From: Mycobacterium sp. Root265
Lineage (GTDB): Bacteria > Actinomycetota > Actinomycetes > Mycobacteriales > Mycobacteriaceae
Reading direction: 5' to 3'
DNA: 64,000 nt
Assembly: GCF_001428895.1 (NCBI RefSeq)
Contig: NZ_LMJA01000009.1
Span: 106,516-170,515, forward strand
Below the pieces are notes generated by a model that was not told the DNA's origin, did not search any database, and was given only the letters and a program-made list of their open reading frames with translations. Shown here piece by piece: positions 7,778 to 58,400 of this stretch. Every line of letters begins with the position of its first letter. Positions within the stretch are counted from its first letter, which is position 1. Made by a program: the position numbers and the translations under genes.

Positions 7778-7787
7778 CGCGGCAGGC

Positions 7788-36877: not shown

Positions 36878-37567
36878 TCAGACGCGGCCGGCGATGAACC
36901 CGGCTGCCTGCGGAATGAAACCCGACGATTCGTAGTGGGTGTGCGCGAACGGGTTGCGCCCGCGCGAGCAGATCGGATCGCCGTCCGCGCAGAGGTCGAT
37001 CCCGCGCCCGCTGAACGGCGGTCCCGCTGCGGTCAACGGGTAGCCGAACTTCGCGCCGGCGTTTCCGAATCCGACCATCGCGGCGACATTCCCGGCCAGG
37101 TTGCCGGGCAGCGGTGGCGCCGAACCCATGTCGCCGATGCGATCACCGACCGGCGGCAGGCCGACAAGCATGTTGACGATTGCGGCCCCCTGCGAGTACC
37201 CGCCGAGCACCACCCGGGTGTTGGGGCAGTTCTGGGCCAGGTAGGCGACACGTCCGGCCGCGTCGACGGCGCCGTCGGCCGCGGTGAAGAAGTCGTAGGT
37301 CGCGGGATAGTTGATCCCGTAGGTGCTCAGGGTGCGCCCCCCGAGTTGCGGGCGCAGCGAATCCGCCAGCGCCTGGCCGACGCGGCCGATGCCGGGGGGC
37401 TCGCTGGTGCCGCGGGCGAAGAGCAGTTCGACGTCCGAGCACGGCTCGGCGGACGCGATCGGTGCGGGACCGGCCAGGACGGCGAGTGCAGTTATCAGTG
37501 CGGATCCCAGTGCGGCCGACCGGGCAGCCATCGTGCGCAGCTTCACGATCAACATCTTCACATTCAA
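36878..37567 (-). CDS. secreted cutinase-family serine esterase (4)
   Basis: The product is 229 residues. A signal peptide (to about residue 40) is followed by CSDVELLFARGTSEPPGIGRVGQAL, the nucleophile in LGGYSQGAAIVN, Asp in CADGDPICSRG and the likely His in NPFAHTHYESSG. It is the upstream member of the array and likely read first from the gap before the EamA gene, which ends 3 nt away on the same strand. Individual substrates of the four enzymes cannot be told apart from sequence. Confidence 0.9.
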   Translation of the reverse strand: MNVKMLIVKLRTMAARSAALGSALITALAVLAGPAPIASAEPCSDVELLFARGTSEPPGIGRVGQALADSLRPQLGGRTLSTYGINYPATYDFFTAADGAVDAAGRVAYLAQNCPNTRVVLGGYSQGAAIVNMLVGLPPVGDRIGDMGSAPPLPGNLAGNVAAMVGFGNAGAKFGYPLTAAGPPFSGRGIDLCADGDPICSRGRNPFAHTHYESSGFIPQAAGFIAGRV

Positions 37568-37570
37568 AGG

Positions 37571-38581
37571 TTAGCTACGGCTAATCGGTTGCCCGGCCGA
37601 CGGTTGCACGGGCGGGACGTCGGGCCAATTGGCCTGCGCCACCTGCTCGGTGCGGTCGCCCTGACGGGCAAGTGCCAGGCCGAGCAGAACCACTGCGCCG
37701 CCGACGGTCTGAGTGATGGTGATCGCCTCACCCAGCAGCGCCCAGGCGGTGAGCACGGCGAACAGCACTTCGGACAGCCCGACCAGCGAGGCGAACCGCG
37801 GGCGCAGCCGGGCCACACCCATGATGCCCAGCGTGTAGGCGATGGCGGTCGGGATGAGCGCGAGCGCGATGACGGGGACGAACCACGGCACCGTCAGTCC
37901 GGCCACCACGGCGTTCTCGGCGCTGAAGTGCATCGGCATGATGCCGGAGACGCCGAGTGCGGCGACGGAGACGGCGCCGACGACCAGGCCGGCCGCGGCC
38001 AGCGTGATGGGGCTCAGTCCGGTGCCGTCGGAGCTCGCCTTCTCCGACATCATGAAGTAGCAGGCCGCGCAGACTGCGGCGGCGAGTCCCCACATCACGC
38101 CGGTCGAGTTGATGTGCGCGCCGGCGAAGACGTCGAGTACCAGCGTGATGCCGGTGATCGCGATGGCGACACCGGCCAGCGTCAGATTGCTCGGTCGGCG
38201 CCGGGTCCGTGCCCACAACCAGCCCACCACCAGAATGGGCGCGGTGTATTCGAGCAGCAGTGCCACGCCCACCGACAGATGAGAGACGGCGTTGTAGTAG
38301 CAGAACTGGGCGCCCGCGACGGGGACCACGCCGTAGGCGATGATCGTGCGGCGATGCTCCAGCGCCTCACGGACCCAACCCGGCCTGGCGAAAGTGGCGA
38401 AGACGGCCATGGCCAGCGCCCCGCCGGCCAGTCGTGCGGTCACCGCGGCGGTGGGGGTCCAGCCCGCCTCCATGAGCGATTTCGCCAGGGGGCCGGACAG
38501 GCCGAACGCGAAGGCGGACGTGATGGCGAACGTCAGGCCGAGCCGGAACCGGCTCGTGGACCGCGCGTCGGTCATCGTCAT
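37571..38581 (-). CDS. EamA/DMT-family transporter
   Basis: The product is 336 residues from the ATG at 38581 (GGAGCG upstream). About ten hydrophobic helices form two EamA repeats. The first starts LTFAITSAFAFGLSGPLAKSLMEAGWTP and the second GVMWGLAAAVCAACYFMMSEKA, each ending in a conserved LLxEPxxP-like segment (LLLEYTAPILVV; LSEVLFAVLTAWALLGE). Drug/metabolite transporters of this type export amino acids, cofactors or drugs. It is divergent from a CGNR-type regulator gene, the usual arrangement of an exporter and its controller. Confidence 0.85.
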   Translation of the reverse strand: MTMTDARSTSRFRLGLTFAITSAFAFGLSGPLAKSLMEAGWTPTAAVTARLAGGALAMAVFATFARPGWVREALEHRRTIIAYGVVPVAGAQFCYYNAVSHLSVGVALLLEYTAPILVVGWLWARTRRRPSNLTLAGVAIAITGITLVLDVFAGAHINSTGVMWGLAAAVCAACYFMMSEKASSDGTGLSPITLAAAGLVVGAVSVAALGVSGIMPMHFSAENAVVAGLTVPWFVPVIALALIPTAIAYTLGIMGVARLRPRFASLVGLSEVLFAVLTAWALLGEAITITQTVGGAVVLLGLALARQGDRTEQVAQANWPDVPPVQPSAGQPISRS

Positions 38582-38599
38582 GAGGCGCTCCAAGATGTA

Positions 38600-38669
38600 A
38601 TGAGTAAAATGAATGTTGCTCATGACAATATCGGTGACGGGAGTCATGCGTCAAATGATTTTCACTCAT
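38600..38669. promoter_or_regulatory. inverted repeats in the EamA/CGNR divergent region
   Basis: ATGAGTAAAAT (38600-38610) and, in inverse orientation, ATTTTCACTCAT (38658-38669) flank the divergent promoter region. A shorter ATGAG/CTCAT pair lies at 38600-38623. These could be operator half-sites for the CGNR protein. The spacing is unusual, so confidence is low. Confidence 0.3.
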
Positions 38670-39212
38670 GACACGGAGCTCACACTGCGGGCCGCGTGCG
38701 TACTGATCAACAGCGACAGGGTCGACGGCGACGAGCTGGGCGACATCGCCGGACTCGACGACTACCTGGCCGAGTTCGGCTGGACCGGACGCCGCGACCG
38801 CGACGACGCCGAACTCGCCGAGGTGCACCGCTTGCGGGAGCGGATCGGGCGGCTGTGGGCGGCCGCCGATGACGAGGAGCGCGCGGTCGGACAGGTCAAC
38901 GCCCTGCTTTCCGACACCAAGGCCTCGCCCTGGCTGACCCGGCACGCCGAGATGCCGGAATGGCATCTGCATCTGGCCTCGATCCACGACCCGCTGGCGC
39001 GCAGGATGGGCGCCGAGATGGCCATGGCGCTGGCCGACCTGATCCGCGGCGGCGAGCTGCGCCGGCTCAAGATCTGCGCGGCACCCGACTGCGAAGCGGT
39101 GCTGTTCGACGTGTCACGGAACCGGTCCAAGATCTTCTGCGACACCGGGAACTGTGGGAACCGCCAGCATGTGGCGGCCTACCGGGAAAGGCGCGGGAAA
39201 GAGGGGGACTGA
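38655..39212 (+). CDS. CGNR zinc-finger (ABATE-type) regulator
   Basis: The product is 185 residues from the ATG at 38655; an ATG at 38646 would add three. The N-terminal part has the LTLRAACVLIN start common to this family and a helical domain. The C-terminal zinc finger has CAAPDCEAVLFDVSRN, then FCDTGNCGNRQHVAAYRERR, giving four cysteines and the CGNR signature. Such proteins are thought to be stress-responsive transcription regulators. It is divergent from the EamA transporter and is its likely controller. It converges on the last gene of the shell/terpenoid operon with a 34-nt overlap. Confidence 0.82.
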   Translation: MIFTHDTELTLRAACVLINSDRVDGDELGDIAGLDDYLAEFGWTGRRDRDDAELAEVHRLRERIGRLWAAADDEERAVGQVNALLSDTKASPWLTRHAEMPEWHLHLASIHDPLARRMGAEMAMALADLIRGGELRRLKICAAPDCEAVLFDVSRNRSKIFCDTGNCGNRQHVAAYRERRGKEGD

Positions 39213-40078
39213 AGGTCGTTCACCGGGCGAACGGACAACAAGTCGGCCGCATGGTGCGACAAAGGGCTCAGCGGGTGCAGCGAACCGCCGGGGTCTCTTG
39301 GTCCGAGCAGTTCCTTCCATTTCGGCGGATCGAGCTTCGACCCGTTCGAAGCATCACCAAGGCCGTTGTTGGTGTCGGACTGCGTCTGATCGGCGTCCGG
39401 CGCAGACTTCGACTGATCGGAGTCTGGCCTGCCGGCTCGTGTCGGAGCGCCCGCGACGGGGGTCTCCCTGCTCCACCACTCGGTGCCTGAGACTGAATAA
39501 GGTTCTGCAGCAGAAGAATAAAGGGATCGCGGCGCCGGATCGGTGGTCCCTCCGTAGGTGCCGGCTCCGCCTTCGGGTGCATAGGCCGAACCTACGCGGG
39601 GTGCGGGCGTCTCATATCCCGGGGCCACCCAAGGTGCAGTCTCCCCGGCATCGGCTCCGGTGGTGGTCTCTGAGGTTCGGCCGCCGTTGTCGATCAGCGG
39701 TGGAACACGGTCCTTCTCACGGCGTGACGAGTCGTCGACGGGTGCCGGCGCGGCGCCCCCTGCGGCAGGGGTGCGGAGCGCTTGTTCGAGGAATTGCCGC
39801 CAGGCTTGCAGTGCCGTCAGCAGCTGCTGGGTGTGGTCGGCGGGCGCGACTGTCGGCTGAATCGGCGGCGGGCCGAAGGCCGGCGGCATCGGGGTGCCGA
39901 ACCCGGGGGGCATCGGGGGGATCGGCGGCGGAACGAGCGGCATTGCCGGAGAGGGCAATTGGGGCATCACCGGGAATGCGAAGCCGGGCGCCACTGCTGC
40001 GCTCGCGACCTGTTCCAGGTACTGCCGCCACGCTTGCAGATAGGCAAGGAGGTTCGGATCGTGCTGCGGCATGGTCAT
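39179..40078 (-). CDS. Pro-rich low-complexity protein with duplicated LQAWRQ(Y/F)LEQ motif
   Basis: The product is 299 residues (MTMPQHD; start codon overlaps the FAD-gene stop as ATGA). Two copies of a helical motif, AYLQAWRQYLEQ (residues about 12-23) and TALQAWRQFLEQ (about 86-97), are separated by a Pro/Phe/Met-rich linker. The rest is a long disordered Ser/Thr/Gly/Asp-rich tail. No catalytic domain is visible. It is the last gene of the shell operon. Disordered proteins with short repeated helical motifs often act as adaptors or cargo-tethering factors, and that is my working guess here. No database family is recognised. Confidence 0.7.
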   Translation of the reverse strand: MTMPQHDPNLLAYLQAWRQYLEQVASAAVAPGFAFPVMPQLPSPAMPLVPPPIPPMPPGFGTPMPPAFGPPPIQPTVAPADHTQQLLTALQAWRQFLEQALRTPAAGGAAPAPVDDSSRREKDRVPPLIDNGGRTSETTTGADAGETAPWVAPGYETPAPRVGSAYAPEGGAGTYGGTTDPAPRSLYSSAAEPYSVSGTEWWSRETPVAGAPTRAGRPDSDQSKSAPDADQTQSDTNNGLGDASNGSKLDPPKWKELLGPRDPGGSLHPLSPLSHHAADLLSVRPVNDLQSPSFPRLSR

Positions 40079-42300
40079 CTTCGTTCCTCCAGGAATGGCG
40101 ATGGGAAGCTGGCGCTACTCGGTGGCGAGGACGGGGCGTCCAACGGGTGGGGAAGTGACTGCGCGGCATATCGGGCATCGAGGTTACGCAGCGGACGAGT
40201 GTCGGCCGGTTCCCGATTCTCCAGATCGAAGATGTAGCAGTAGTCACCGGCCGGTGTCGGCATCCGGATCGGGCTCGACAAGCTCTGGTCGAGGAACCCA
40301 TAGGGAAACCGCCAGTCGAGCGTGGTGTTTTCGCGACGATCGGCACCCCGGGTCGCGACCCAGACGTAGTGGTCCAGGATGGCGTTGACCGCGTGACGGC
40401 CCGATTCGCAGGCCGCTTCCATGGAGGTCATCCGGGTGAAGGTCTTGGTCCACGTGCCGGCGAAGACGACCGAGTTGTGGTGCACCTGATAACCGCCGTG
40501 GCGGGCTTGCCACACGTGGCGCTGCAGCAGATCCTCCAGCCACCACTGCTCGTTCGGCCGGTAGGTCCAGGACGTGCCGTGCGGATTCCAGGGATCGCCG
40601 CCGGGACGGTTTGGCCAGTCGCCGACGATCGGTATGAGATAGGGCGTTTCGTTGCGGATCGGGTGACCGGTGTCCGGCGCCAGATGTAGCCCGGTGTCGA
40701 GTGTGTACCAGGCGGGCCACGGCAGGATCCCCTCCGGACGGGTCCCGTCGACGGTGGTGAGCGCGTCGACGATCTGCCGCCACACCTCGGTGGCGATCTC
40801 GTCTGCGGTGCAGTCGCGGGCGGCCTTGCCGCGGCCGGATTCGTCGCGCAGGTGCTGCGACGCAGTGTTGAAATCGCCGATATCCACCGACAGCACCGAG
40901 ACGTAGCCATTCTGGGCCAGATTGGGTCGCTGTTCCCACATTCCGTGTTGGTTGATCGAGGACAGCGCCCACTCGGTGCCGGAGTAGTACATGTGCCCGC
41001 GCAGCAACTGGAACTCGGTATCGAAGAAGTACTGGATACCACTGAGGGTTTGAAACCGGTCCCACGGCACTCGGCCCATCTGATTTACGGCGTATGGATC
41101 TCGCCTCGTGTGCGGCCGGGTGGACCCCGGCTGGAGCGGGCCGTCGGGTGGAGGTGCCGACGTCGTGAAGCCGTCCAGTTCGGCCACCGTGCCCCCGGTG
41201 CCGGTTGCGCGCATCGTCGCCGTGATCCGCTCGGCGCCGGGAGCATCGACGGCCACCACGGTGTAGTCCGGTGTCACCCGAGTTTCGTCGGCCAGTGTCA
41301 CCCGGGCGCGGGGGCGAAGATATGGCGGCTGTGCCGGGTCGACCACGGGCGGATCGATGCTCGCGGCCGCTGCATGCACGAATCGCACACCGAGCCGGAC
41401 CAGATGGCGATACCAATGGTCGAACCACGACTCGGTGGTGGGCGCGTTGAGGACTCCGTCGGCCTTGTTGTCGCGGCGGTCCATCTGGAGTTGCAGCTGC
41501 AGATAGGTGGTCAGATTGGTGCGGGCGTCTCCCCAGCGGGCGTCGAATGCGGCCAGCACCTTGGGCATTTCGAGCAGGTACCGATCGAACTGCGGCGAAT
41601 AGTGGAAGCGACGGGTGCCATCGGCCTGCCGCCCGACGAAGAAGTCGTAGGCCGATTGGTTCTGCAGTTCGGTGGCGCGGCGCGGCGGGCTCGTCACGAG
41701 GTACTGCAGCAGCCGGCTCACGAAGTTCTGCACATCGCCGGGCGAGAATCCCAGACTCATGAGTTGTCGAACAACGCTGACGAATTCACCGGGGCTGCGG
41801 GGCGCCTCGCGCGGAAACACCAGGGACGGCTTGCCGGCCAGCGTCGTGCCCTGGGTGACAACGCGTTTGACGTTGTCCAGTACCGTCCGTGAACTCGGCT
41901 TCCACCGGAGCGCGCCGCCCGGGTCGGTCGTCGGCTCATATATCGGGATGCGGTTGAACAGATCCCAGGTGTGCAGGTAGTAGGCGGGGAAGAAGCGAAA
42001 GCCATGCTCGCCCGCGACGGCATCAACGGGCGGTGTCGGGCGGCCGCGGCAACCGGGAAAGGGACGCAGCTGCGCGCAATTTCCCCCCGTGGTTACGGCT
42101 TTCGCGTACTGCGACGCCGCGAGTCCGCCGAGTTTGACCGGCAGATTGCCGCGCTCATCCGCTCGGGCCTCGTACACCGTGACCTCGAAGCCACGTTCGG
42201 CGAGTTCCTGAGCTGAGGTCAACCCGGCGATGCCCGCACCCAGCACCGCCACGGTGGGGCGGCGGGCGCTGGACGCTGGGGTGATGATCGGTTCGTTCAT
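40075..42300 (-). CDS. FAD-dependent oxidoreductase, desaturase/dehydroxylase-like
   Basis: The product is 741 residues. An N-terminal dinucleotide-binding motif VAVLGAGIAGLTSAQELAERGFEVTVYEAR identifies the amine-oxidase/phytoene-desaturase superfamily. GEHGFRFFPAYYLHTWDLFNRIP resembles the second conserved block of carotenoid desaturases and hydroxysqualene dehydroxylase-like proteins. The C-terminus has SVVFAGTWTKTFTRMTSMEAACESGRHAVNAIL, the usual FAD-closing motif. It is about 250 residues longer than HpnE or CrtI, with extra inserts in the middle. I infer hydride transfer on an isoprenoid. It is coupled by ATGA overlaps to the SCP2-like gene (upstream) and the Pro-rich gene (downstream). 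Confidence 0.75.
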   Translation of the reverse strand: MNEPIITPASSARRPTVAVLGAGIAGLTSAQELAERGFEVTVYEARADERGNLPVKLGGLAASQYAKAVTTGGNCAQLRPFPGCRGRPTPPVDAVAGEHGFRFFPAYYLHTWDLFNRIPIYEPTTDPGGALRWKPSSRTVLDNVKRVVTQGTTLAGKPSLVFPREAPRSPGEFVSVVRQLMSLGFSPGDVQNFVSRLLQYLVTSPPRRATELQNQSAYDFFVGRQADGTRRFHYSPQFDRYLLEMPKVLAAFDARWGDARTNLTTYLQLQLQMDRRDNKADGVLNAPTTESWFDHWYRHLVRLGVRFVHAAAASIDPPVVDPAQPPYLRPRARVTLADETRVTPDYTVVAVDAPGAERITATMRATGTGGTVAELDGFTTSAPPPDGPLQPGSTRPHTRRDPYAVNQMGRVPWDRFQTLSGIQYFFDTEFQLLRGHMYYSGTEWALSSINQHGMWEQRPNLAQNGYVSVLSVDIGDFNTASQHLRDESGRGKAARDCTADEIATEVWRQIVDALTTVDGTRPEGILPWPAWYTLDTGLHLAPDTGHPIRNETPYLIPIVGDWPNRPGGDPWNPHGTSWTYRPNEQWWLEDLLQRHVWQARHGGYQVHHNSVVFAGTWTKTFTRMTSMEAACESGRHAVNAILDHYVWVATRGADRRENTTLDWRFPYGFLDQSLSSPIRMPTPAGDYCYIFDLENREPADTRPLRNLDARYAAQSLPHPLDAPSSPPSSASFPSPFLEERR

Positions 42301-42701
42301 CCGCGATCCGCCCGGAGCGCGTTCAATAAGCCGGGTTGTGAGGGTGCCCGCACGGCGGCATGCACGTAGGCCTTGAGCGTGTCGTGGGCTCGCAGGATGT
42401 CGTCGAGCGTGCCGTGCACAGTCAAACTGCCCGTCTCCACGGCGCGGTCCAGCGTGATCACCGCGTCGAGCACGTCGAGCACCGTGTCCCGTGACACCTT
42501 GACCCGAGTGCCGGCCGTCGGGTCGACGCCATTGGTCACCTCGAGCCGCCGGCCCCCGCTCAGTGAGAAGCATTCGGAGTCGATGTCGAGGCCGACCACC
42601 AGAGGTCCGAGGGTGTCGAGCACGATGCGGTAGCTGTCCGGTGCCTCGTCGGCAAGGTGGCCGATGGACTGCCGCAGGAGTGCCGAAATACGTTCAGCCA
42701 T
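42297..42701 (-). CDS. SCP2-like lipid-binding protein
   Basis: The product is 134 residues. It begins 8 nt inside the CrtC-like gene and ends in an ATGA overlap with the FAD gene. The pattern SYRIVLDTLGPLVVGLDIDSECFSLSGG, followed by KVSRDTVLDVLDAVITLDRAVETGSLTVHGTLDD, fits the sterol-carrier-protein-2 fold, in which a final helix covers a hydrophobic tunnel. It probably binds or presents a lipid intermediate to the neighbouring enzymes. The assignment is by pattern and is not certain. Confidence 0.6.
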   Translation of the reverse strand: MAERISALLRQSIGHLADEAPDSYRIVLDTLGPLVVGLDIDSECFSLSGGRRLEVTNGVDPTAGTRVKVSRDTVLDVLDAVITLDRAVETGSLTVHGTLDDILRAHDTLKAYVHAAVRAPSQPGLLNALRADRG

Positions 42702-43716
42702 GGAGAAACTCGAATACTCCGGTACCGATGAAGTCGATGTCCTTGCCGTTGATCGACCCTGTGACCGCTGCCGTTCCAGTGGATTCGCAGAGCACAGTGG
42801 AGTCGGTGAGTGACATCTCGCTGGGCTGCGCGAGCCGCGCGTAGGACTGCGGCCGGAACTCGACGTGCACGGTGTCACCGGCTCTGCTCGCGGCCACGTC
42901 GACGCATTCGGGTACGCCGGGTACATCGCCATCGAGCAGCAATCGCATCGGTGGTGGGAGCGTGCAATCCGCCTGACGGGCGAGCACACCGGACGTACGG
43001 ACCGTAACTGACGCATGGCGGAAGATGGCGGCAGGTTCGTCCTGGTGCCATACATAGAGTGCCTGTGACAGGTAGCGATGTCGTCGCCGGTCGGTCATCC
43101 GCAGGAACACCAGCGACCATGGCACGTCCGGATCGCTGGGAAGCACCGTCGCCCATTCCCAGCCGAAGTCGTCGCCCCACCAGAACCGGCCCCAGTTGTG
43201 GTCGTGATAGGCGATGTCGTTGTCGAAGCGGTGTTCTCGGTCGCCAATGCGCAGCCACCCGGTGGCGTGCAGGCGTGGTACGAACAGCCAGCTCATCCGG
43301 CCCGACCCCACCGGTTGATTGTTCACGACGAAGGGCCGGCTGACCGAGACGAACCAGAGTTCGCCTTTGATGCCCTGTTGGGGGAGGTCGATTCTGAGCT
43401 CGTAGCCGTTGCGTCCGATGTGCATGCCGCTGTCGCCAATGGACAGGTTACCGAGATCGGCTGCAATGACGAGATCGTCCTCATCGAAACGTTGGATAAC
43501 GCCGTGCCATTCGTCATCGTGTCCGATGACGATGATCCTGGGGACGGCGCGAATCCGGCCGCCCGGCGCGACCTCCGTGTCGAGGCTGAAGTTGATGAGT
43601 ACACGGCACTCCTCGGCGTGAATGACGAAGTGGTGCCATTCCTTGAATCCGTGTGGGTTGGCCGCACCGATGGTCGGTGTCCGCATGAAGTCGCTGGCGG
43701 CCAGTGAGGCGGTCAT
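42694..43716 (-). CDS. CrtC/AttH-type lipocalin-like hydratase-family protein
   Basis: The product is 340 residues from the ATG at 43716, whose ATGA overlaps the preceding stop. A double-lipocalin CrtC/AttH layout is indicated by the diagnostic AYHDHNWGRFWWG and by FGWEWATVLPS, KEWHHFVIHAEECRVLINFSL and the Trp-rich strands between. CrtC enzymes add water to the terminal double bond of acyclic carotenoids; others of the family are uncharacterised. In an operon with a prenyl synthase and a desaturase-type flavoenzyme, an isoprenoid substrate is likely. Reaction type is inferred from the family. Confidence 0.78.
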   Translation of the reverse strand: MTASLAASDFMRTPTIGAANPHGFKEWHHFVIHAEECRVLINFSLDTEVAPGGRIRAVPRIIVIGHDDEWHGVIQRFDEDDLVIAADLGNLSIGDSGMHIGRNGYELRIDLPQQGIKGELWFVSVSRPFVVNNQPVGSGRMSWLFVPRLHATGWLRIGDREHRFDNDIAYHDHNWGRFWWGDDFGWEWATVLPSDPDVPWSLVFLRMTDRRRHRYLSQALYVWHQDEPAAIFRHASVTVRTSGVLARQADCTLPPPMRLLLDGDVPGVPECVDVAASRAGDTVHVEFRPQSYARLAQPSEMSLTDSTVLCESTGTAAVTGSINGKDIDFIGTGVFEFLHG

Positions 43717-43979
43717 CGCAACCACCGCGTTGCGTCGGTGGTCGTGCGCACGGTGTTGGTGGCGGCGGTGTCGGTGTGCTGTCCCAGGCTTTCGATGCCG
43801 GCACCCATGCTGGCAAGACCCAGCAGCAGGTGCACGAAGTCGTCGGCAGCGCCGGCTGTGACTGCTTCCGGGGCTCCGGCCAGGGTGTGCACCATTCGTC
43901 CGATGCTCGCCAGGCCGACCAGATAGCCGATGAAGCTGCAGTCATCGGCAAGTGCGGCAGTGGGATCGGTCAGTGTCAT
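43713..43979 (-). CDS. small helical protein of unknown function (88 aa)
   Basis: The product is 88 residues with ATGA overlaps at both ends. Two similar hydrophobic helices, LVGLASIGRMVHTLAG and LLGLASMGAGIESLGQ, form an internal repeat with GLAS(I/M)G. They are not hydrophobic enough to be confident membrane helices. The C-terminus is polar. I recognise no family. Its strict conservation of position inside the operon (no gaps on either side) implies that it is functionally part of the system, perhaps as a subunit, a cargo anchor or a membrane-interacting factor. Confidence 0.6.
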   Translation of the reverse strand: MTLTDPTAALADDCSFIGYLVGLASIGRMVHTLAGAPEAVTAGAADDFVHLLLGLASMGAGIESLGQHTDTAATNTVRTTTDATRWLR

Positions 43980-44434
43980 GCGAATCCCTCGGGCCGCAGA
44001 CGCGCGAGCATGGCGTCGTCGAGGCCCTGCCCGACGACCGCGTCGGCCAGCAACTCGGCCCAGGCGGTCGGTGCGGCATTGGGTTCGGCTGGACCGTCGA
44101 GCACGTTGAGGCTGACCGTTTCCCAGACGCGGCGCAGATTCTCCACGGCATCGGAGGCCACCAGGCGATCGCGCAACAGTGCGCCTTCCGGTGTCCGGCC
44201 ATAGCGCATGCCCTCGGAGACGAGCATGTCGTGAATGCGGCGCGCCGCAGCGGGGTTGCCCAGCACCGCACGGCGGGCACCGAGGAGCAGGTCGAACACT
44301 GCCGGGCTCTGTCCCTCGACGTCATCTGGGGGCGCGGGTAACAGTTGCGGTGCCGCGTTTTCGGCGAGGTCGAGGGTGGCTTCCGTGATCCGCTCCAGCT
44401 CGGCCAGCACGCCGATCAGGTCCTCGGCGTTCAT
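43976..44434 (-). CDS. helical protein of unknown function (152 aa)
   Basis: The product is 152 residues from the ATG at 44434, which overlaps the prenyl-synthase stop. It is Ala/Leu/Glu-rich and probably all-helical (DLIGVLAELERITEATLDLAENAAPQL; GARRAVLGNPAAARRIHDML; AVENLRRVWETVSLNVL). It has no cysteine or obvious metal site. Its C-terminus overlaps the 88-residue gene. No family is recognised. In the operon it lies between the prenyl synthase and the CrtC-like gene and may be an accessory or assembly component. Confidence 0.6.
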   Translation of the reverse strand: MNAEDLIGVLAELERITEATLDLAENAAPQLLPAPPDDVEGQSPAVFDLLLGARRAVLGNPAAARRIHDMLVSEGMRYGRTPEGALLRDRLVASDAVENLRRVWETVSLNVLDGPAEPNAAPTAWAELLADAVVGQGLDDAMLARLRPEGFA

Positions 44435-45630
44435 CGCGTGCGCTCGTGTACGTAGTCGACCAGGCTGCTCAGCATCTCGCGGTGCTGGCTGGGCGGTAGC
44501 CAATCCAGCTCGGCCAGCACGGACTCCGCCGCCTCAGCGTGGCGGGCGGCAACGTCGCGGGCATGGCCCAACGAGCCGACCCGCTGGATCATCTCGAAGA
44601 GCCACCGGATGTCGTCGAGTGTCTTGGCGTCGGTGTGACGCTGGGCGTGCAGGAATCCGTCGATCTCAGTTCGCCCGGCCAGGGAAAGCTCGCCGCGCCC
44701 GGCCAGGCGATCCAACAGGTCGGTGAGGTTGAGTTCAGCGTCCATGGCGGGTCGGCGTCTGCCGAGAATCTGTACGGCGCGTTCGCGCTCACCGTCGGGG
44801 AGATTCCGCAGCATGTGCAGCAGCATCAGGGTGCGCTTGCCTTCCCACAGGTCGCCGCCGATCTCCTTGCCGTAGTCTTCGGGATCCCCACGCAGATTGA
44901 GCAGGTCGTCGGTGATCTGGAAGGCGGCACCGATGTGCCGGCCGAATGCTTCCAATGGGACGAGCCGGTCGACCGGAGCGCCGGCGGCGAGGGCGCCGGC
45001 TTGTAGCGGTGTGATGAACGAGTACCAGCTCGTCTTGAGCTCGACCATCTTCAGGTAGTCCGCGTCGTCCAGCTGCCACGTATTGCTCTTGACCCAGTCG
45101 AGTTCGATGGCCTGACCGTCCACGGTCTGCCTGGTCATGTGGGCGACGGCGCGCAGGATGCGCAGAGCCGGTCCGAGCCCGACGCGTTCGACATTGTCGA
45201 GCAGTGGTTGGAGCGTGAGCGACAACATGGCGTCACCGACGTTCACGGCGATGGGGACGCCGTGATCGATGTGCATGGTGGGTTTGCCGCGACGCCACCA
45301 GGATTCGTCTTCGATGTCGTCGTGGATGAGGAAGGCGTTGTGATACAGCTCGAGCGTTGCCGCGGTGGGTAGGACCGCTTCGAGGTGCCCGCCGAGACCA
45401 AGGCAGATGGCGATCGCCAGCGCGGGCCGTAGCGCTTTGCCGCCGCGTTGCGGATAATCGAGGATCAGGTCGTGCAGGCTGCTGGAGCCTTGTTGCCCCG
45501 AGCCGTACAGCCTTTCGATCTCGCCGTCGCAGAGGCTCTTGCATTCGGCGAGATACGTTTCGAGCGAGTCCGCCGCATCCTGAGGCCCAGCCGTTTCAGG
45601 GACCCTTGACGGCGACGATACCGCTGGCAT
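44431..45630 (-). CDS. polyprenyl diphosphate synthase (short-chain, GGPP-synthase-like)
   Basis: The product is 399 residues from the ATG at 45630 (GAGGATCAAGG upstream), overlapping the shell gene by 35 nt. The trans-prenyl transferase motifs are GGKALRPALAIAIC, the first aspartate-rich motif HDDIED, TVDGQAIEL, and the second motif ITDDLLN with GDLWEGKRTLMLLHML. Ala and Phe precede the first motif rather than bulky aromatics, compatible with a product longer than C15. The first 35 residues form a Ser/Pro/Glu-rich disordered tail that could be a targeting sequence. It makes the isoprenoid backbone in this operon. Confidence 0.85.
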   Translation of the reverse strand: MPAVSSPSRVPETAGPQDAADSLETYLAECKSLCDGEIERLYGSGQQGSSSLHDLILDYPQRGGKALRPALAIAICLGLGGHLEAVLPTAATLELYHNAFLIHDDIEDESWWRRGKPTMHIDHGVPIAVNVGDAMLSLTLQPLLDNVERVGLGPALRILRAVAHMTRQTVDGQAIELDWVKSNTWQLDDADYLKMVELKTSWYSFITPLQAGALAAGAPVDRLVPLEAFGRHIGAAFQITDDLLNLRGDPEDYGKEIGGDLWEGKRTLMLLHMLRNLPDGERERAVQILGRRRPAMDAELNLTDLLDRLAGRGELSLAGRTEIDGFLHAQRHTDAKTLDDIRWLFEMIQRVGSLGHARDVAARHAEAAESVLAELDWLPPSQHREMLSSLVDYVHERTR

Positions 45631-46432
45631 CCTTGATCCTCGTCGCGAAGCTGATACGCACCGCAAGTTCGACATGGCCTGCAGCAGTTTCTCCGATCAC
45701 CGCCAGACTCGGTGGAACGCCGATCGCAATATCCACCGGTTCCTCGCCGGGAGACGCACCTGCAGCCCGACCGTGGGCGATCAAATTGCGCCGACCCACC
45801 AGAAGAATTCGAACCTTGTCCTTATTGGCGGCGACCCCATCGATCGTCGTCGATCGGTGTAGCGAATTTGCGTTCGCAGCGGCGAGTAGCGAGTCGAGGA
45901 CTGAGTAGCCGCTTACAAACTGGCTGAGCTTCACGAGACCGGCGGTGTTGGTAAGCAGCGTGGAAGGCGCGCGATATCCGGCGTCCTCTACCCTGGCCCT
46001 AGCAGGAATCAGTTGATCGAGGATTTCCTGTGGCGTAATAACGGTTGGAGCGACCGGGGCGATAGTCAGACCGACGGCTTGGACAGCGGTGTAAAGAAAT
46101 TTCAGAATGATGTCATCGACCGTGCGGGCCAGTTCCACGGTGTGGCTGATGACAGTTGCGAGCAAGGCATCAGGATTGGGACCTGACGCTTGTGCGAGCG
46201 TCACGTTGATCTGAACGTCTTTGGGGTCGAGTGTCAGCGAAGCAGTGAAGAACGGTCCAGGAACTGATGGATTCGAAGGCTGGACCGCAGTTGCTGTGTC
46301 GCCGCGAACCTTGGTCGCGCCAGGATCGCCCGTCTCCCAGTGAGGAATGCTCTGCCAGACGATACTGGTTTGCTCAAAAGTCTCTCGAACTTGTTTATTG
46401 GCGAGCGCCAATCGGTCGGCAGTCAAGTACAT
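45596..46432 (-). CDS. putative encapsulin-like / HK97-fold shell protein
   Basis: The product is 278 residues from the ATG at 46432, preceded by GAGGGGG. The order of elements follows encapsulins. An N-arm helix and basic loop come first, followed by the strand-rich FFTASLTLD. A helix (ISHTVELARTVDDIILKFLY) aligns with the FEDEVIFRG region, and TPQEILDQLIPARARVEDAGYRAPSTLLTN aligns with the helix and P-domain strand. The C-terminal half, DIAIGVPPSLAVIGE and VELAVRISFATRIKDASGIVAV, aligns with GQDLSIGY and the final A-domain strand. Length matches family 1 encapsulins (about 265-280). There is no cNMP domain and no phage genes nearby. GC content is lower than its neighbours. The assignment is by eye only. 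Confidence 0.55.
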   Translation of the reverse strand: MYLTADRLALANKQVRETFEQTSIVWQSIPHWETGDPGATKVRGDTATAVQPSNPSVPGPFFTASLTLDPKDVQINVTLAQASGPNPDALLATVISHTVELARTVDDIILKFLYTAVQAVGLTIAPVAPTVITPQEILDQLIPARARVEDAGYRAPSTLLTNTAGLVKLSQFVSGYSVLDSLLAAANANSLHRSTTIDGVAANKDKVRILLVGRRNLIAHGRAAGASPGEEPVDIAIGVPPSLAVIGETAAGHVELAVRISFATRIKDASGIVAVKGP

Positions 46433-51355: not shown

Positions 51356-52747
51356 ATGGTTCGGCGTTCGGTGACACGGCTACAGGTGAGCGGCTACCGC
51401 TTCCTGACGCGCAGAATGGAATACGCGTTGGCATGCCGGGATACCCGCATGCTCGACGACCCCATCCGCAGCCAGTCGATGGCACTGGCGGCCGGCGTCG
51501 TGCTGGCCGCGATCGTGGTGGCGGTGTGTGCGGTGCTGGCACTGATGCGTCCACACGGAAGCCTGGGCGCCGATCCCATCGTCATGGCCCGGGACTCCGG
51601 TGCGATGTACGTGCGCGTCGGCGACATCATGCACCCGGTGCTGAATCTGGCGTCCGCGCGGTTGATCGCCGGGACCCCGGCGGTGCCGCGGCTGGTGAGC
51701 GCGGCCATGATCGCCGACGCCGAACACGGTCCGCTGATGGGTATCCCGGGCGCGCCGGGCAATATCGCACCGGCGCTCGCAGACGATCAGCAGGCCTGGA
51801 CCGTATGCGATGACGGCGGCGACCGGACCACCACGGTGATCATCGGCGCGCCCGGGCAGCACCCGGTCGCTCCGCCGGTGCTGGTCACCGCGGCCCAGGA
51901 ACGCGCGCGCGGAACCTACCTGCTACACGCCGGGCGCCGCGCCGCGGTGGATCTGCGCGACCGCGCAGCGGTGCGCGCGCTGCGACTGGACCGCGTTGTC
52001 CCGCTGCCAGTTTCGGCCGCACTACTGGACCCCCTCCCGGAGGCGACGCCGATCGTGGCGCCCCGGGTGCCCGGCGCCGGAGGACCCGGACCCGCCGGGC
52101 TGGCCGAGTTCCGGGTCGGCGAGGTGCTGCGGGTGCCGCGGGCGGACGCGGCCGATCACTACGTGGTGCTCGCTGATGGAGTGCAGCGCGTGGGGCCGGT
52201 GGCGGCGGATCTGATTCGTTTCGCCGACTCTCACGGCGGCGGCGAGATACCCGATGTGCCGGCCGACCGTATCGCCGCCGTGCCGGTGGTGGACACGTTG
52301 ACGGTGACCGATCTGGCCGATCCGACGGTGGCCGGTGCCGACCTCGGTGGCGGGCTGTGCACGCGCTGGCAGTGGCGCAACGGATCGGTGCCGGACACGG
52401 CCGTGCTGGCACCCGGCACCCTGCCCGACCAGGAACGCGCCCTGACACTGGTCCAGGCCGATGGCGACGGGCCCCGGGTCGACGCCGTGTCGGTTCCGCC
52501 CGGGCACAGTCTCTACCTCCGGGCGGCAGGCGTCGCCGGGGAGGGCATGTCGACCGGACCGCGGTACCTGGTCACCGAATCCGGGGTGGCATTCGGCGTC
52601 GGTGACGCGCACGCTGCCGAAGCCCTCGGGCTGCCGCAGGCACCGGGCGCCGCGCCGTGGCCGCTGCTCGCGCTGCTACCGCGTGGACCGGAGCTCAGCG
52701 TCGCCCGCGCTGCCGTCGTGCAGGACAGCGTCCGCGTCCCGTCGTGA
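51356..52747 (+). CDS. eccB4: ESX-4 type VII secretion protein EccB
   Basis: The product is 463 residues. It begins LQVSGYRFLTRRMEYALACRD, a motif characteristic of EccB. A single transmembrane helix (about residues 41-67, MALAAGVVLAAIVVAVCAVLALM) follows, then a large periplasmic domain with IPGAPGNIAPAL, WTVCDD and a C-terminal GVAFGV region. EccB is the core-complex component that links inner-membrane EccC/D to the periplasm. It is the first gene of the ESX-4 locus, convergent with mycP; their 3' ends overlap by 72 nt. Confidence 0.92.
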   Translation: MVRRSVTRLQVSGYRFLTRRMEYALACRDTRMLDDPIRSQSMALAAGVVLAAIVVAVCAVLALMRPHGSLGADPIVMARDSGAMYVRVGDIMHPVLNLASARLIAGTPAVPRLVSAAMIADAEHGPLMGIPGAPGNIAPALADDQQAWTVCDDGGDRTTTVIIGAPGQHPVAPPVLVTAAQERARGTYLLHAGRRAAVDLRDRAAVRALRLDRVVPLPVSAALLDPLPEATPIVAPRVPGAGGPGPAGLAEFRVGEVLRVPRADAADHYVVLADGVQRVGPVAADLIRFADSHGGGEIPDVPADRIAAVPVVDTLTVTDLADPTVAGADLGGGLCTRWQWRNGSVPDTAVLAPGTLPDQERALTLVQADGDGPRVDAVSVPPGHSLYLRAAGVAGEGMSTGPRYLVTESGVAFGVGDAHAAEALGLPQAPGAAPWPLLALLPRGPELSVARAAVVQDSVRVPS

Positions 52748-54037
52748 CCTCAGAGCCGCCGAGGCCACCGCGAGTGCCGCACACACCGCGGCGCCCATCA
52801 GCGCGAACCGCCGTGGCTCAGCGTCGGTGACCACGGTGGGCGGCGACGCCAGTGGACGCGGTGCGTCCGGCGGCGCGGGAGCGGCGATACCGCGCATCGC
52901 GGCCAGCACATCGACCACGCCGTGTCCCACCAAGGGATTCCAGTCCGACCCGGGATGGCGTGCGGTGCTCTCGATACGGTGCATCACCTGGCGGGCCGTC
53001 AAGGTCGGGGCCGCCGCGCGCAGCAGCGCCGCGACGCCCGACACCACCGGGGCCGCGTAGCTGGTCCCGGAGATCGGTTGCGGATCAGGGTGTCCCGGCA
53101 TCGTGTCCGCCAGTCCCTCCCCGGCCGGATTCAGCGATGTCACGGACTCGGCGGGGGCGGCGACGTCCACCCACGGACCGGCCAGGGTGAAATCGGACGG
53201 TGCCCCGTCGGCGTCGACCGACCCGACCGTCAGCACGTAGTCGTCATACCAGCTGGGGCTCGCCACCACGTCGACGCGATCCCAGTCGGGCCCGCCAGCA
53301 GGATCGGGCAGCGGATTCTGTTTCGGGCATGTGCCCTGTCCGCCCACATTTCCGGCCGCGGCGACCACCACCACGTTGCGGGTGTCCACTGCGTACGCCA
53401 GGGCCGCACCCAGCGCCCGGTCATCGAGAGCATCGGCGACGGCGAGGCAGGCCACCGAAGAGATGTTGATGACGGTGGCACCCTGGTCGGCGGCGGCCCG
53501 CACCGCCGCAGCGAGCGACTCGACGTCCCCGACGCCGTGGCCACCGGCATCGGCGGCGCGGAACTTCATGCTGGACTGGCGGATCGCGAGAATGGCGGCA
53601 TCCGGTGCGATACCGCTGAACCCACTGGCCGGGTCGGGAGCCGCCCCGATGATCCCGGCGACGATGGTGCCGTGGCCGTCACAGTCGGCGGTGCCGTCGC
53701 CATCGGCGACGTAGTCGCCACCCGGCACCAGATGCGGCAGCAGCCGGTGCCGCGCCACACCGGTGTCGATGACCGCCACCGTCTGCCCGGCGCCACGGGT
53801 GCGAACCCACGCGGTGCGCAGATCGGGTCGTTCCCGGCGCGGCACCGTCTCGACGAGCGGGGCGGTCGCGCAGGTTTCGAATTGTTCGGTGGGGTAACGC
53901 GAAGCGGCCGGCCCGGGCTGCGGCAGTAACCGGCTGTCGATCGGCGGCGGACCGACCGCGACGGCGGGCGCCGCGGTGAGGACCGGTGCCACGGTGAACA
54001 GCACGGCCGCGAGCATCGGGGCAGCCCGGCCGATCAT
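52676..54037 (-). CDS. mycP4: ESX-4 mycosin (membrane-anchored subtilisin-like protease)
   Basis: The product is 453 residues from the ATG at 54037, in ATGA overlap with the eccD stop. A signal peptide leads to the mature protease with Asp in VIDTGVA, His in DGHGTIVAG and Ser in SGTSYAAPV. The oxyanion Asn is in VVVVAAAGNVGG. A C-terminal transmembrane helix (FALMGAAVCAALAVASAAL) is followed by a basic tail of 25 residues. MycP stabilises the ESX core complex and processes substrates in some systems. The long upstream ORF reading is not used. Confidence 0.93.
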   Translation of the reverse strand: MIGRAAPMLAAVLFTVAPVLTAAPAVAVGPPPIDSRLLPQPGPAASRYPTEQFETCATAPLVETVPRRERPDLRTAWVRTRGAGQTVAVIDTGVARHRLLPHLVPGGDYVADGDGTADCDGHGTIVAGIIGAAPDPASGFSGIAPDAAILAIRQSSMKFRAADAGGHGVGDVESLAAAVRAAADQGATVINISSVACLAVADALDDRALGAALAYAVDTRNVVVVAAAGNVGGQGTCPKQNPLPDPAGGPDWDRVDVVASPSWYDDYVLTVGSVDADGAPSDFTLAGPWVDVAAPAESVTSLNPAGEGLADTMPGHPDPQPISGTSYAAPVVSGVAALLRAAAPTLTARQVMHRIESTARHPGSDWNPLVGHGVVDVLAAMRGIAAPAPPDAPRPLASPPTVVTDAEPRRFALMGAAVCAALAVASAALRSRRDADAVLHDGSAGDAELRSTR

Positions 54038-55338
54038 CCGACACTCAGCGATCGCACCAACCCGTACACGTCGGCGGCCCAACATGCCAGTGGCACGACG
54101 GCAGCAAGCAGGACGTATTCGGCCACATCGCTTGCGCGCGCCCACGACGAGGCGTGCCTGCCTTGGCCTGCCCGGCACCAGCCAGCCAGGCCAACGGCCA
54201 GCAGCACCGCCGGACCCGCGTACCGCGGCGCCGATACCGTGGCCAGCGCGGCGACCGCCGCGACACCGCTCAGGCCGCACCAACCCAGCGCGGCCCGGCA
54301 CCGCGGGTCGGCGTAGAACCGGGTTCGCAACAGCAGCAGTGCCGCAAGCACCGCGGCCAGCACGAATCCCGGCAGCCATGAGCTGCCGCCCCGACAGCCC
54401 GCGGCAATCGCGCCGATGGCCAGCGCGGTGGCCGTCGCACCTCCGGTCACCAGGCCCGCGAAGACCGTGTGGCCACCGAACGCGGCCGCCTCGGACACCG
54501 GGTCGGCACTGTCGCCAGGAAACGGCGGACGAAGTCCGCTGACCGACAAAGTGATCCGGCCGGCGACGCCCAGTGTGCCCAGGGCCAGCACACCGAGAAC
54601 TGCACCCGATGCCACGAGGTCCAGGGCCGCCATGAGTGAGAAAGCGGACACCGCGGCCACCGCTGCGGACGCGGTGGCCACAGCGGTGAGCAGCCAGGCA
54701 TCACCGCGTCCCGCACGCAGTAGCCACAGCGAGGCGAGACCACCGGCAGCCGCGCCGAGCGTCAACCCGGGGCCGCCCCCACCGGGCACCGCGAGAAAGC
54801 CTGCGACGCCGACGAAACCGACCGACAAGCCGTGCAGGGTCGCACGCATGGCATCGTGTCGCCACCCGACGATGAGGCACCCCGCCGCACTGATCAGGGC
54901 GATGCCGGCGGCCACCATCGGCACGCCGCCGCGGCTGCCCGAGAACCCGAGCGTGATCAGCGCGAGCACACCGACGCACGCCCACATCCGGGCAGAGGTC
55001 GTGTGATCCGGTGCGGGGCTGGGTCCGGCCTCGGCCACGGCGCGGAAGGGATCCGCGCGGAGTGGGCCCGGCGCCGGCGCGCCGACGGGGGAGAGCACCA
55101 TGACGTCGCCGTCGGATACTCCGCTTTCGTGCAGCGTCATCGACTCATCGCAGTGCCCGCCGCTGAGACGGTCCAACCGCCAGCCCTGGGATGCGGTACC
55201 CGACTCCGGTTCTGCGGCAAAGAGGTCGACGATATCGGGCAGCAGCAGACCGACTTCGGCATGGCGCGGCAGCATGAGGTCCACCGCCCTCGGCTCGGTG
55301 GCACTCTGAATCGACACCCGGCACAACGGATCATCCAT
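54034..55338 (-). CDS. eccD4: ESX-4 integral membrane protein EccD
   Basis: The product is 434 residues from the ATG at 55338 (GGGGGATGG upstream). A ubiquitin-like N-terminal domain (about residues 1-95, CRVSIQSATEPRAVDLMLPRHAEVGLLLPDIVDL) is followed by about eleven hydrophobic helices, the EccD pattern. It forms the dimeric channel-like membrane vestibule of the type VII secretion system. Its stop overlaps the mycP start. It is divergent from eccC, with about 110 nt between. Confidence 0.92.
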   Translation of the reverse strand: MDDPLCRVSIQSATEPRAVDLMLPRHAEVGLLLPDIVDLFAAEPESGTASQGWRLDRLSGGHCDESMTLHESGVSDGDVMVLSPVGAPAPGPLRADPFRAVAEAGPSPAPDHTTSARMWACVGVLALITLGFSGSRGGVPMVAAGIALISAAGCLIVGWRHDAMRATLHGLSVGFVGVAGFLAVPGGGGPGLTLGAAAGGLASLWLLRAGRGDAWLLTAVATASAAVAAVSAFSLMAALDLVASGAVLGVLALGTLGVAGRITLSVSGLRPPFPGDSADPVSEAAAFGGHTVFAGLVTGGATATALAIGAIAAGCRGGSSWLPGFVLAAVLAALLLLRTRFYADPRCRAALGWCGLSGVAAVAALATVSAPRYAGPAVLLAVGLAGWCRAGQGRHASSWARASDVAEYVLLAAVVPLACWAADVYGLVRSLSVG

Positions 55339-55448
55339 CGCCCATCCCCCTGCACGTTCCCCCGATGCCACGGTAACGGGGCGGTGAGCATCCGCTGCGC
55401 ACCAAAATTGAGGGGAACCCGAGGCGCGCGCGCTGCGTCGAAATAGGA

Positions 55449-58400
55449 ATGGAGTTCCTGAGGGAGAAGCGTCTGCCCGCTCCGCCCGTGCCGGACGGAG
55501 AGGTGGTACTGCGGCGACCACCTGACGTGCCCGTGGTAGAGCCGGCGAGTCCGTTGGCGCGCCTGTTGCCGGTGCTGATGCTCGTCGCGGTCGGCGGCAT
55601 GGTGGTGCTCTACCTGACCTCGTCGACCGGCTCGGGCGCGACGACGCCGCGCAACCCGGTGTACATGATCTTCCCGGTGATGATGGTGATCTCGGTGCTC
55701 GGCACACTGGCCCACACCGGGCGGGGCCGGACTGCCGAGCTGAACGCCGGCCGGCGTGACTACCTGCGCTACCTGGACACCGTGGCAGCGGATATCGGTG
55801 AAACCGCACGCAAGCAACATGTTTCGGCGCACTGGAGCGATCCCGATCCCGCGACGCTGTGGACACTGGTGGGCGGCAGGCGAATGTGGGAACGCAGACC
55901 CGTGGACCCTGACTTCTGCCGCGTTCGGGTCGGAGCGGGCCCCGCCCCGCTGCTCACCCCACTGACCACCGCACCGGCCGACCGGGTCGCCGAGCCGGAC
56001 CCGGTGACGGCCGGGGCGCTGGAGGGCCTACTCGTCGGCCGAGCGGTGGTGGCAGACCAGCCCGTGACGGTTGATGCCTCCGGTCACCTCGGGTTCGACG
56101 GTGAGCCGGCTGCGGTGCGAGACCTGGTGCGTGCCATGGTCTGCCAACTTGCGGTGCTGCACAGCCCGGGTGATGTATCCGTGATGGGGCCCGCCGGTCC
56201 GTACTGGGACTGGCTGAAATGGCTGCCCCATCACGCGCAGCGGCCGGGCGCGGGGCGCACCGTGGCGATCCTGGAGGGGGACATGCCCGCCCCGGTCGGC
56301 GCCGAGGTCACGGTGCTCGACCTCAATGGAGGCGGCGACACGACGATCGAGCTCGCGGCCATCGCTCACGTGGACGGCCTGTCGCCGGCGCAGGCAAGGA
56401 TGTGCGCGCGCAGGCTGTCCCGGTGGCGTACCGGCCCGGATGCGGGCGTCGCCGGCACGACATGGGCGGGTCTGGTCGGTGTCGGTGTCGGTGCCGCAGC
56501 GGATCTCGATCCGGCGGCGGTATGGCGCCCCCGCGCGGATCAGGACCGGCTGCGGGTACCCATCGGTGTCGGCGACGGCGCGGACAATCGGGGTGAACCG
56601 GTGTTCCTCGACATCAAGGAGGCCGCCGAGGGCGGTATGGGCCCGCACGGACTGTGCGTCGGAGCCACCGGATCGGGGAAGTCGGAATTCCTGCGCACGC
56701 TCATCCTCGGACTGGTGGCCGCCCATTCCCCCGATGACCTCAATCTCGCCCTCATCGATTTCAAGGGCGGCGCCACATTTCTCGGCTTCGAACAGCTGGC
56801 CCATGTGTCGGCGGTCATCACCAATCTCGATGACGAGGCCTACCTGGTCAGCAGGATGCACGAGGCGCTTTCCGGTGAGATGAACCGGCGCCAGCAGGTC
56901 CTGCGGGCAGCCGGAAACCTCGGGAACATCGCCGAGTATCGGCGCGCTCGGACGACGGAGTCCGGTCTGCCCGCGTTGCCCGCGCTGTTCATCGTCATCG
57001 ACGAGTTCTCCGAGCTGCTCAGCCAGCACCCCGACTTCGCCGAGTTGTTCGTGGCGATCGGGCGGCTGGGCAGGTCGCTGGGGATGCACCTGCTGCTGGC
57101 CAGTCAGCGTCTCGATGAGGGCAGGCTGCGCGGGCTGGAGACCCACCTGTCCTACCGGGTGTGTCTGAAGACATTCTCGGCCAGTGAATCCCGCGCCGTT
57201 CTCGGACTGCCCGACGCGTACGAACTGCCGACCGCGCCGGGCGCGGCCTATCTGAAGACCAGCGACGGCCGGCTGGTGCGGCTGCGCACCACGTATGTCT
57301 CCGGACCGGACATCGCCAGGGGTGCTCCGGACCTGCGCGCGCGCCGATTCACGTCGGCATCCGATGACGATGCCGGCGGGGCTGAGGTGCATATCGACAC
57401 CGGTGCGACCGTGCTGGAGACCGTACTGCACCGGCTGGCCGGTCACGGCAGGCCGGCGCACCGGCTGTGGTTGCCCGCGCTACCGGCATGTCCGGCGTTG
57501 GAGGAACTGCTCGCGCTGCACGACGGTGCCCGGCTGACCGCGCCGATCGGGCTGGTGGACAACGCCTTCGCGCAGCGTCGTGACCTGCTCACCGTCGACC
57601 TCAACGGGTCCGGTGGGCACGTCGCCGTGGTGGGTGCGACGCGATCCGGCAAATCCACCGCACTGTGCGCACTCCTGCTGGCGCTCGCCGCCACGCACAG
57701 CCCCGCCGACGTCCAGTTCTACTGTCTCGACTTCGGTGGCGGCACATTGACTGCACTGCAACACCTTCCGCACACCGGGGTGGTCGCAGGACGCGGTGAC
57801 GGCGAACTGGTGCGCCGGACCGTGGCGCAGCTACAGACGCTGATCCGTCGCCGCGCGGGCGCCGGACGCACCGCCGCGCCCGACGGCTATGGCGAGGTAT
57901 TCCTGGTGGTGGACGGCTGGGGCGCGCTCCGGCATGTCGACGACAACCTGGAGGAGGTCATCACCGCAATGGTCGCCCAGGGTCTCGCGCACGGAGTCCA
58001 TGTCGTCATCGCCGCCTCCCGCTGGGGCGAACTGCGGCCCGCCCTCAAGGACCAACTCGGCACCCGCATCGAGTTGCGTCTGGGCGAGCCTGCGGAATCC
58101 GAGATGGACCGCAAGGCGGCCCGCCATCTGGTGGACAGCCCGCCCGGAGCCGCCATCACCCGGGACGGCAGGGTCGCGGCGATCGCCGTGCCGCGCCTCG
58201 ATGCCCTCGACACCATCGCCCAAGACCTGCGCACGCGTCATGCCGGGCGCTGCGCCATCCCGGTCAGGCTGTTGCCCACGTTGGTGGAGCGCAATTCGGT
58301 CCCTGCCCAGGATGCAGGCCCCACCAACGTCACCATCGGCATCGGAGAGTCCGAGTTGAAGCCGGTAACAATCGATTTCGCCGAGACGTCACATCTGATC

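Follow-up and report, generated by a model that had tools for sequence, protein, structure and literature searches.

A 64,000-nucleotide (nt) stretch of DNA from Mycobacterium sp. Root265 (NZ_LMJA01000009.1; hereafter the window, to whose positions all coordinates refer) carries a nine-gene cluster, present in some mycobacteria, in which a gene that appears to specify a virus-capsid-like shell protein stands together with genes for putative isoprenoid-modifying enzymes, among them a trans-polyprenyl diphosphate synthase (PPS; Table 1). Eight open reading frames (ORFs) on the minus strand, spanning positions 39179-46432, are all present without internal stops, and each of their seven junctions overlaps: five through ATGA (PPS-g3, g3-g4, g4-g5, g6-g7 and g7-g8), the shell-PPS junction by 35 nt (assuming that PPS starts at the ATG at 45630, an inferred start), and the g5-g6 junction by 8 nt. 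An initial annotation of this DNA had described an eight-gene operon in which every junction overlaps, mostly through ATGA, and had concluded that these overlaps force co-translation. Inspection of the ORFs and their junctions bore out the layout; the conclusion was too strong, however, since the overlaps favour translational coupling. The eight genes are real, but a ninth had been missed, namely a cyclase gene on the same strand that is positioned 68 nt upstream of the shell gene. Scans of the cluster for promoters and terminators gave nothing usable.

Table 1. Predicted genes of the cluster, in order of transcription (aa, amino acids; g3 to g8, labels used in the text).
Gene product	Positions	Strand	Basis of the assignment
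AAA_16/TPR/GAF/class III nucleotide cyclase protein, 1438 aa	46501..50817	-	Pfam AAA_16 8.2e-30, Guanylate_cyc 6e-09, GAF 7.3e-06
Putative shell protein, HK97-fold, encapsulin-like, 278 aa	45596..46432	-	AlphaFold2 model, Foldseek, sub-cut-off PF04454 in homologues
PPS, trans-polyprenyl diphosphate synthase with motifs DDIED and DDLLN, 399 aa from the inferred start	44431..45630	-	PF00348 (polyprenyl_synt) 1.7e-58; 1wmw 1.7e-52
g3, conserved, function-unassigned, 152 aa	43976..44434	-	Same 22/148 genomes as shell
g4, small, conserved, function-unassigned, 88 aa	43713..43979	-	Homologue alignment, conserved order
g5, AttH/CrtC-like tandem beta-barrel, 340 aa	42694..43716	-	AlphaFold2 pLDDT 82.2; Foldseek AttH 2ich 5.8e-12
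g6, SCP2-like lipid-binding protein (predicted), 134 aa	42297..42701	-	PF02036 in 8/14 homologues, best E 0.0037
g7, flavoenzyme, amine oxidase/desaturase type, 741 aa	40075..42300	-	NAD_binding_8 1.6e-08, Amino_oxidase 8.5e-08
g8, Pro-rich disordered tail protein, 299 aa	39179..40078	-	Helix motif count, in-frame fusion to g7 elsewhere, own GGAGG

On its own, the 278-aa shell sequence matched nothing in Pfam, NCBIfam or PHROGs and nothing notable among the sequences of the Protein Data Bank (PDB), and a first scan of genome contigs with this single protein failed. Profiles and a structure model were therefore needed to place it. An AlphaFold2 model, computed from an alignment of the window sequence with 41 of the 42 homologous loci recovered from GTDB contigs (the frameshifted locus L083 was omitted), reached a predicted local distance difference test score (pLDDT) of 88.2 and a predicted template modelling (TM) score of 0.87 and adopts the HK97 fold, with an N-terminal helix (residues 5-22), an E-loop region, a spine helix (residues 88-119) and a beta-rich A-domain region. 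Comparison of this model with the PDB by Foldseek yielded 290 matches at E <= 0.001, with a best E value to encapsulins of 6.7e-14. Among the 50 matches listed, 46 were named encapsulin or EncA, and the remaining four were a P. furiosus virus-like particle (two) and an engineered nanocage (two). Myxococcus xanthus EncA (7s21) matched with E 1.6e-13, a TM score of 0.73 and 14% identity; the natural shells among the matches listed comprise those of M. xanthus (EncA), T. maritima, M. smegmatis and M. tuberculosis, and the listed encapsulin and EncA shells are regarded as members of Family 1. The best match among predicted viral structures was a capsid protein (E 8.2e-12, TM score 0.64). The initial annotation had called the protein HK97/encapsulin-like and had set a structure and profile search beforehand as the check on this call; the structure search placed it inside the HK97/encapsulin fold, which confirms the proposal at the level of the model. 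The protein is very likely an HK97/encapsulin-type shell protein.

A residual signal can also be traced in the sequences of the homologues. PF04454 matched five of the 42 (best E 1.7e-4; 21.4 bits, below the cut-off of 24.3) and three of the ten that were rescanned, NF041155 matched two of the 42 (best E 0.0029, below its curated cut-off), and the top match of a shell profile search of the PDB was the T. maritima encapsulin (E 0.62). It is the fold that is predicted here and not the assembly, and one could therefore suppose that this HK97-fold protein has lost the ability to form a cage and serves as an oligomeric scaffold that gathers the enzymes via the helices of g8. The fast divergence of the shell protein outside its N-terminus would suit such a role, as would the paired helix motifs of g8, a feature that scaffold partners often have. 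We nevertheless consider a scaffold unlikely, because the complete fold is kept, from the N-terminal helix through the E-loop region and spine helix to the A-domain region, and the matches to assembled shells are full-length.

Four families of encapsulins are counted in the literature (PMC8346489, PMC12407261), and the best reading of the tests run is that the shell stands outside the described families, with Family 1 as its nearest relative. Family 1 (PF04454 Linocin_M18/NF041155) is closest in predicted fold, has a similar length, and is the source of the faint profile matches; a long N-terminal helix in place of an extended N-arm, given as a Family 1 trait (PMC8346489), has its counterpart in helix 5-22 of the predicted subunit. 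However, identity to Family 1 is only about 14%, the matches stay below both curated cut-offs, the window shell itself matches neither PF04454 nor NF041155, and the cargo of Family 1 is ferritin-like, a peroxidase or similar, whereas the cluster shell is accompanied by a multi-enzyme isoprenoid set. With respect to Family 2A, neither PF19307 nor NF041162 was among the matches of the 42 homologues, and no cysteine desulfurase is among the eight genes. Family 2B, with polyprenyl transferase or terpene cyclase cargo, likewise has its shell beside isoprenoid enzymes and had served the initial annotation as its point of comparison, with the remark that the present shell lacks the family's cyclic nucleotide monophosphate (cNMP)-binding domain. 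This contrast holds: the Pfam scan of the 42 homologues did not list PF00027, and at 246-279 aa these proteins leave no room for such an insertion. Moreover, the tail described below is found on the flavoenzyme and not on PPS, and a cyclase gene lies next door rather than a cyclic-nucleotide domain within the shell. The nearest kin by fold and residual sequence signal is, however, Family 1, to which the shell is closer than to Family 2 both in the fold listing and in profile-profile comparison (hhalign). The best NCBIfam model for PPS is the Family 2 cargo model NF041169, at 183 of 450 bits; we gave it no weight as an argument for membership in Family 2B, because archaeal IdsA scores nearly the same (181.8) and the cut-off is far off. 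Like the cluster studied here, Family 3 (PF05065) has its shell gene inside biosynthetic clusters, which are of the peptide type (PMC8346489), yet PF05065 was not among the matches of the 42 homologues and the gene content differs too. The Family 4 shell is truncated to the A-domain, whereas the modelled cluster shell has the N-terminal helix, E-loop region and spine helix as well. No account of this cluster was recognised in the literature searched, in which subscription papers are thinly covered, so that the system may have been described elsewhere. The genome that harbours the cluster also encodes separate shells of Family 1 and Family 2A (G000:C14:23191-23943 and G000:C27:323112-323999) and may thus, counting the cluster shell, have three shell systems.

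Homologues of the shell are present in 22 of 148 genomes of the genus, in seven of 298 genomes of an order-level draw (2/76 genera) and in six of 394 of a class-level draw (1/137 genera), the three draws overlapping. A scan of GTDB contigs with the shell profile recovered 42 loci, all in Mycobacterium/Mycolicibacterium except for those of a metagenome-assembled genome from the Pseudonocardiales (L074) and of Pseudonocardia eucalypti (L078). The g3 profile matched exactly the same 22 genus genomes, shell and g3 being the two genes for which co-occurrence was counted genome-wide. The order cyclase-shell-PPS-g3-g4-g5-g6-g7 was found in each of the 20 regions from the genus search (with one cyclase cut by a contig end and one g5 in pieces), and g8 was matched in 17 of them. 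It was likewise kept in 40 of the 42 named loci, a set that shares strains with the 20 regions; this count includes loci whose matches run off a contig end, L076 with its shortened cyclase, and the decaying copy of Mycobacterium lepraemurium (L083), in which both shell and flavoenzyme genes are frameshifted. The two exceptions are L074, where the contig ends, and L078, where the cyclase gene is downstream and inverted. Homologues living apart from these neighbours had been named in advance as an observation that would speak against the initial annotation; instead, the co-occurrence of shell and g3 and the gene order proved to be conserved. These data also bear on the possibility that the shell gene is a phage capsid remnant lying beside a lipid operon by chance. 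Phage major capsid proteins do have the same fold, but the conserved order and the shared genomes of shell and g3 are difficult to reconcile with chance, no relative of the shell was detected among viral contigs, plasmid or phage records at the sensitivity of the pattern or tblastn searches used, and none of the five cluster proteins scanned against PHROGs had a match. A prophage origin is therefore not supported, and we regard a chance remnant as very improbable.

With the exception noted for L078, the cyclase gene lies directly upstream of the shell gene in the other loci as well, and it belongs to the cluster. All 38 sequences compared share its catalytic residues D1192, D1236, N1307 and R1311; D1232, V1298 and L1299 are likewise shared by all, and are unusual in that they occupy the sites of the Lys and Asp that normally select the base. 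The cyclase is probably active, and the protein is a probable regulator or sensor of the cluster.

The enzyme assignments made in the initial annotation were supported. The PPS match to PF00348, computed with a provisional start at 45600 as was that to the T. thermophilus geranylgeranyl diphosphate (GGPP) synthase 1wmw, bears out the call of a polyprenyl diphosphate synthase; the protein resembles GGPP synthases. Neither g3 nor g4 had a match in Pfam, NCBIfam or PHROGs, and g3 had none in the PDB. The g5 model is all-beta, and its closest structures are AttH, kievitone hydratase, [4+2] pericyclases and a 25-phosphosteroid lyase; g5 shares its fold with these AttH/CrtC/pericyclase double-lipocalin enzymes (including CghA, Phm7 and Fsa2) at 10-14% identity. 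Its sequence signal is weak, with DUF2804 matching 14 of its 16 homologues (best E 0.0083), tocopherol cyclase matching six of them, and no match in a sequence search of the PDB. Thus, the CrtC/AttH-type call is supported by structure and weakly by sequence, and g5 is a candidate hydratase, lyase or cyclase. PF02036 supports the SCP2-like call for g6 through its homologues, though not in the window copy, and the call of a desaturase-type flavoenzyme agrees with the N-terminal FAD/NAD(P)-binding motif by which g7 is mainly recognisable.

The Pro-rich g8 protein had been noted for a duplicated LQAWRQ(Y/F)LEQ. This duplication is real (aa 14-23 and 90-99, followed by an RSLYS motif at aa 184-188). 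The most fitting interpretation of g8 is that of a detachable tail belonging to g7. Two or more such helices occur in 31 of 39 usable homologous tails and in none of the shuffled sequences, and a (K/R)SL(F/Y)S-like motif is found in 29 of these 39 tails versus 2.4% of shuffles; the search patterns were written after the sequences had been seen, and L070 was dropped for Ns. The tails contain 13-28% Pro. Among 40 complete g7 ORFs, 20 continue in frame into g8 (19 of 39 when the frameshifted L083 is left aside and intact loci are counted), giving proteins of 911-1076 aa in the fused state versus 738-756 aa in the split state. Placed on a g7 tree of 38 sequences (18 fused; 20 split, including the window), these states require six changes, five of which are forced by well-supported branches. 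Of 19 fused genes, 18 have a GGAGG before the internal start (the sequence is AAGGAG in L045, and the start in L078 is TTG), as have all 20 split genes before the g8 start, compared with one of 407 other in-frame ATGs and seven of the 693 ATGs counted over all frames of g7; the scan for internal starts was guided in that it chose the earliest such start downstream of a PHPL landmark. It is this switching by in-frame fusion with retention of a separate ribosome-binding site that makes g8 look like a detachable docking tail, and the retained site means that the fused genes may make both forms. Cargo proteins of Family 2 carry disordered Pro/Ala/Gly-rich regions (PMC8346489) and the targeting peptide of Family 1 is of the type GSLxIGSLK (PMC10960027); the motif of the cluster tails does not follow the latter consensus. 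By analogy with either kind of element, the g8 tail is a candidate docking element, and g7, the only enzyme seen with a disordered tail, is most likely the cargo.

We favour, with a probability of about 0.6, the interpretation that the cluster encodes an encapsulin-type nanocompartment for the flavoenzyme g7 together with an isoprenoid pathway. HK97-fold subunits of about 250-280 residues would form a closed shell enclosing g7, and the disordered Pro-rich g8 tail, either fused to g7 or made separately beside it, would dock on the inner shell wall. PPS would supply a prenyl diphosphate whose chain g5 and g7 might hydrate, cyclise or (de)saturate, the SCP2-like g6 would carry the hydrophobic product, and the upstream cyclase protein could tune expression or activity. 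Computation has shown the fold predicted for the shell, the genes present with their co-occurrence and order, the tail fusion with its retained internal start and the variability of the shell body described below; from these we infer assembly, the identity of the cargo, its docking site, chemistry and regulation, and thus a filled compartment for making or storing isoprenoids.

Several observations weigh against this interpretation. Unrelated PDB chains (E 0.9 and above) follow directly behind the T. maritima encapsulin in the profile search, and hhalign of the shell with Family 1 gave E 0.005 with a probability of just 7.1 (E 0.11 and 0.5 with Family 2), in both cases from small narrow alignments. 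The SL(F/Y)S motif is only slightly like known targeting peptides, and g5, g6 and PPS are without an obvious loading tail. Furthermore, a genome of another class (G992) contains a g5-like gene (E 3.8e-41) with a PPS gene (40%, 4e-81) and an SCP2-like gene (locus L138, 8146-11838), and no shell was found there; this empty search alone is weak, though the same query matches other genomes. The chemistry may thus not need the shell, a general requirement of the enzyme module for a shell is not supported, and the enzyme set may be older than the shell. The relationship of the SCP2-like gene of L138 to g6 is convincing (hhalign probability 88.6); that of a gene resembling g3 and g4 is not (E 0.0046 and 0.043, probabilities 7.7 and 1.2). 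After the module come unknown proteins (5816-8091), one of which gave weak fn3-like/PapD-like matches.

Alternatively, the shell could store or carry the lipid product, with the enzymes at work outside and g6 and g8 helping to load the hydrophobic isoprenoid into the cage. The module without a shell, the SCP2-like nature of g6 and the restriction of the loading-type tail to one enzyme would suit such a role. The tail has, however, been fused repeatedly to an enzyme, as expected for enzyme cargo, and we judge a mere store to be improbable compared with a compartment that encloses g7.

The shell gene itself has an unusual pattern of variation. Median pairwise identity is 0.49 for the shell and 0.52 for g4, which is hence variable as well, compared with 0.64 for g6, 0.68 for g5, 0.69 for the cyclase, 0.73 for g3, 0.75 for g7 and 0.76 for PPS. 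Three pairs, L064/L066, L051/L059 and L067/L076, have 80-98% identity in the near flanks and over the first 100 nt of the shell gene; in the shell body identity drops to 45-75%, and it rises again at the end of the gene or within about 100 nt of it. The control pair L064/L069 lacks this drop, with just one bin at 0.75. Among the 88 pairs whose downstream DNA has an identity of 0.86 or more (pairs that share loci and are not independent), the shell body lies below 0.70 in 37, in which the first 96 nt of the gene are at 0.76-0.98 and the upstream flank is at 0.81 or above. Moreover, g7 of the window groups with L075/L079/L081, whereas its shell does not (approximately unbiased test, p 0.02, for a group taken from the g7 tree). 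The GC content at third codon positions is 0.61 in the window shell versus 0.73-0.82 in the other eight genes; with a median of 0.80 among homologous shells, this low value is a trait of the window copy and not of the homologues. The simplest reading of these sequence patterns is that the shell body has been replaced by a divergent allele; constraint on the N-terminal helix with very fast change elsewhere is the alternative.

One may go further and regard the cluster as a fifth encapsulin family, namely a multi-enzyme isoprenoid nanocompartment whose tail switches between a fused and a free state with its own ribosome-binding site and whose shell body is exchanged as a variable cassette, while N-terminal helix, enzymes and cyclase stay put. 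We offer this proposal tentatively, as its chances are somewhat below even. Exchange of the body alongside a fixed helix and fixed enzymes would imply a diversifying pressure on an intracellular shell.

If these interpretations are correct, encapsulins extend beyond the reach of sequence profiles, and this shell has neighbours that resemble a whole isoprenoid pathway instead of one enzyme. The tail would then be a directly testable loading signal, and its natural switch between fused and free states would offer a ready-made experiment on the control of loading. That an intracellular shell should have a hypervariable body is unexpected and raises the question of the selection behind it. Isoprenoids are important for the lipids of mycobacteria, and the cluster, with its occurrence in 22 of 148 genus genomes, marks a discrete and patchy trait.

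On its flanks, the cluster is bordered by type VII secretion-like genes (EccB, mycosin, EccD; 51356-55866), labels that represent a reading of the ORFs alone, and on the other side by genes for an ABATE/CGNR regulator, a transporter and a cutinase-like protein (36878-39212). EccB-like, mycosin-like, transporter, cutinase-like and ABATE genes adjoin the cluster in the same six of the 42 loci.

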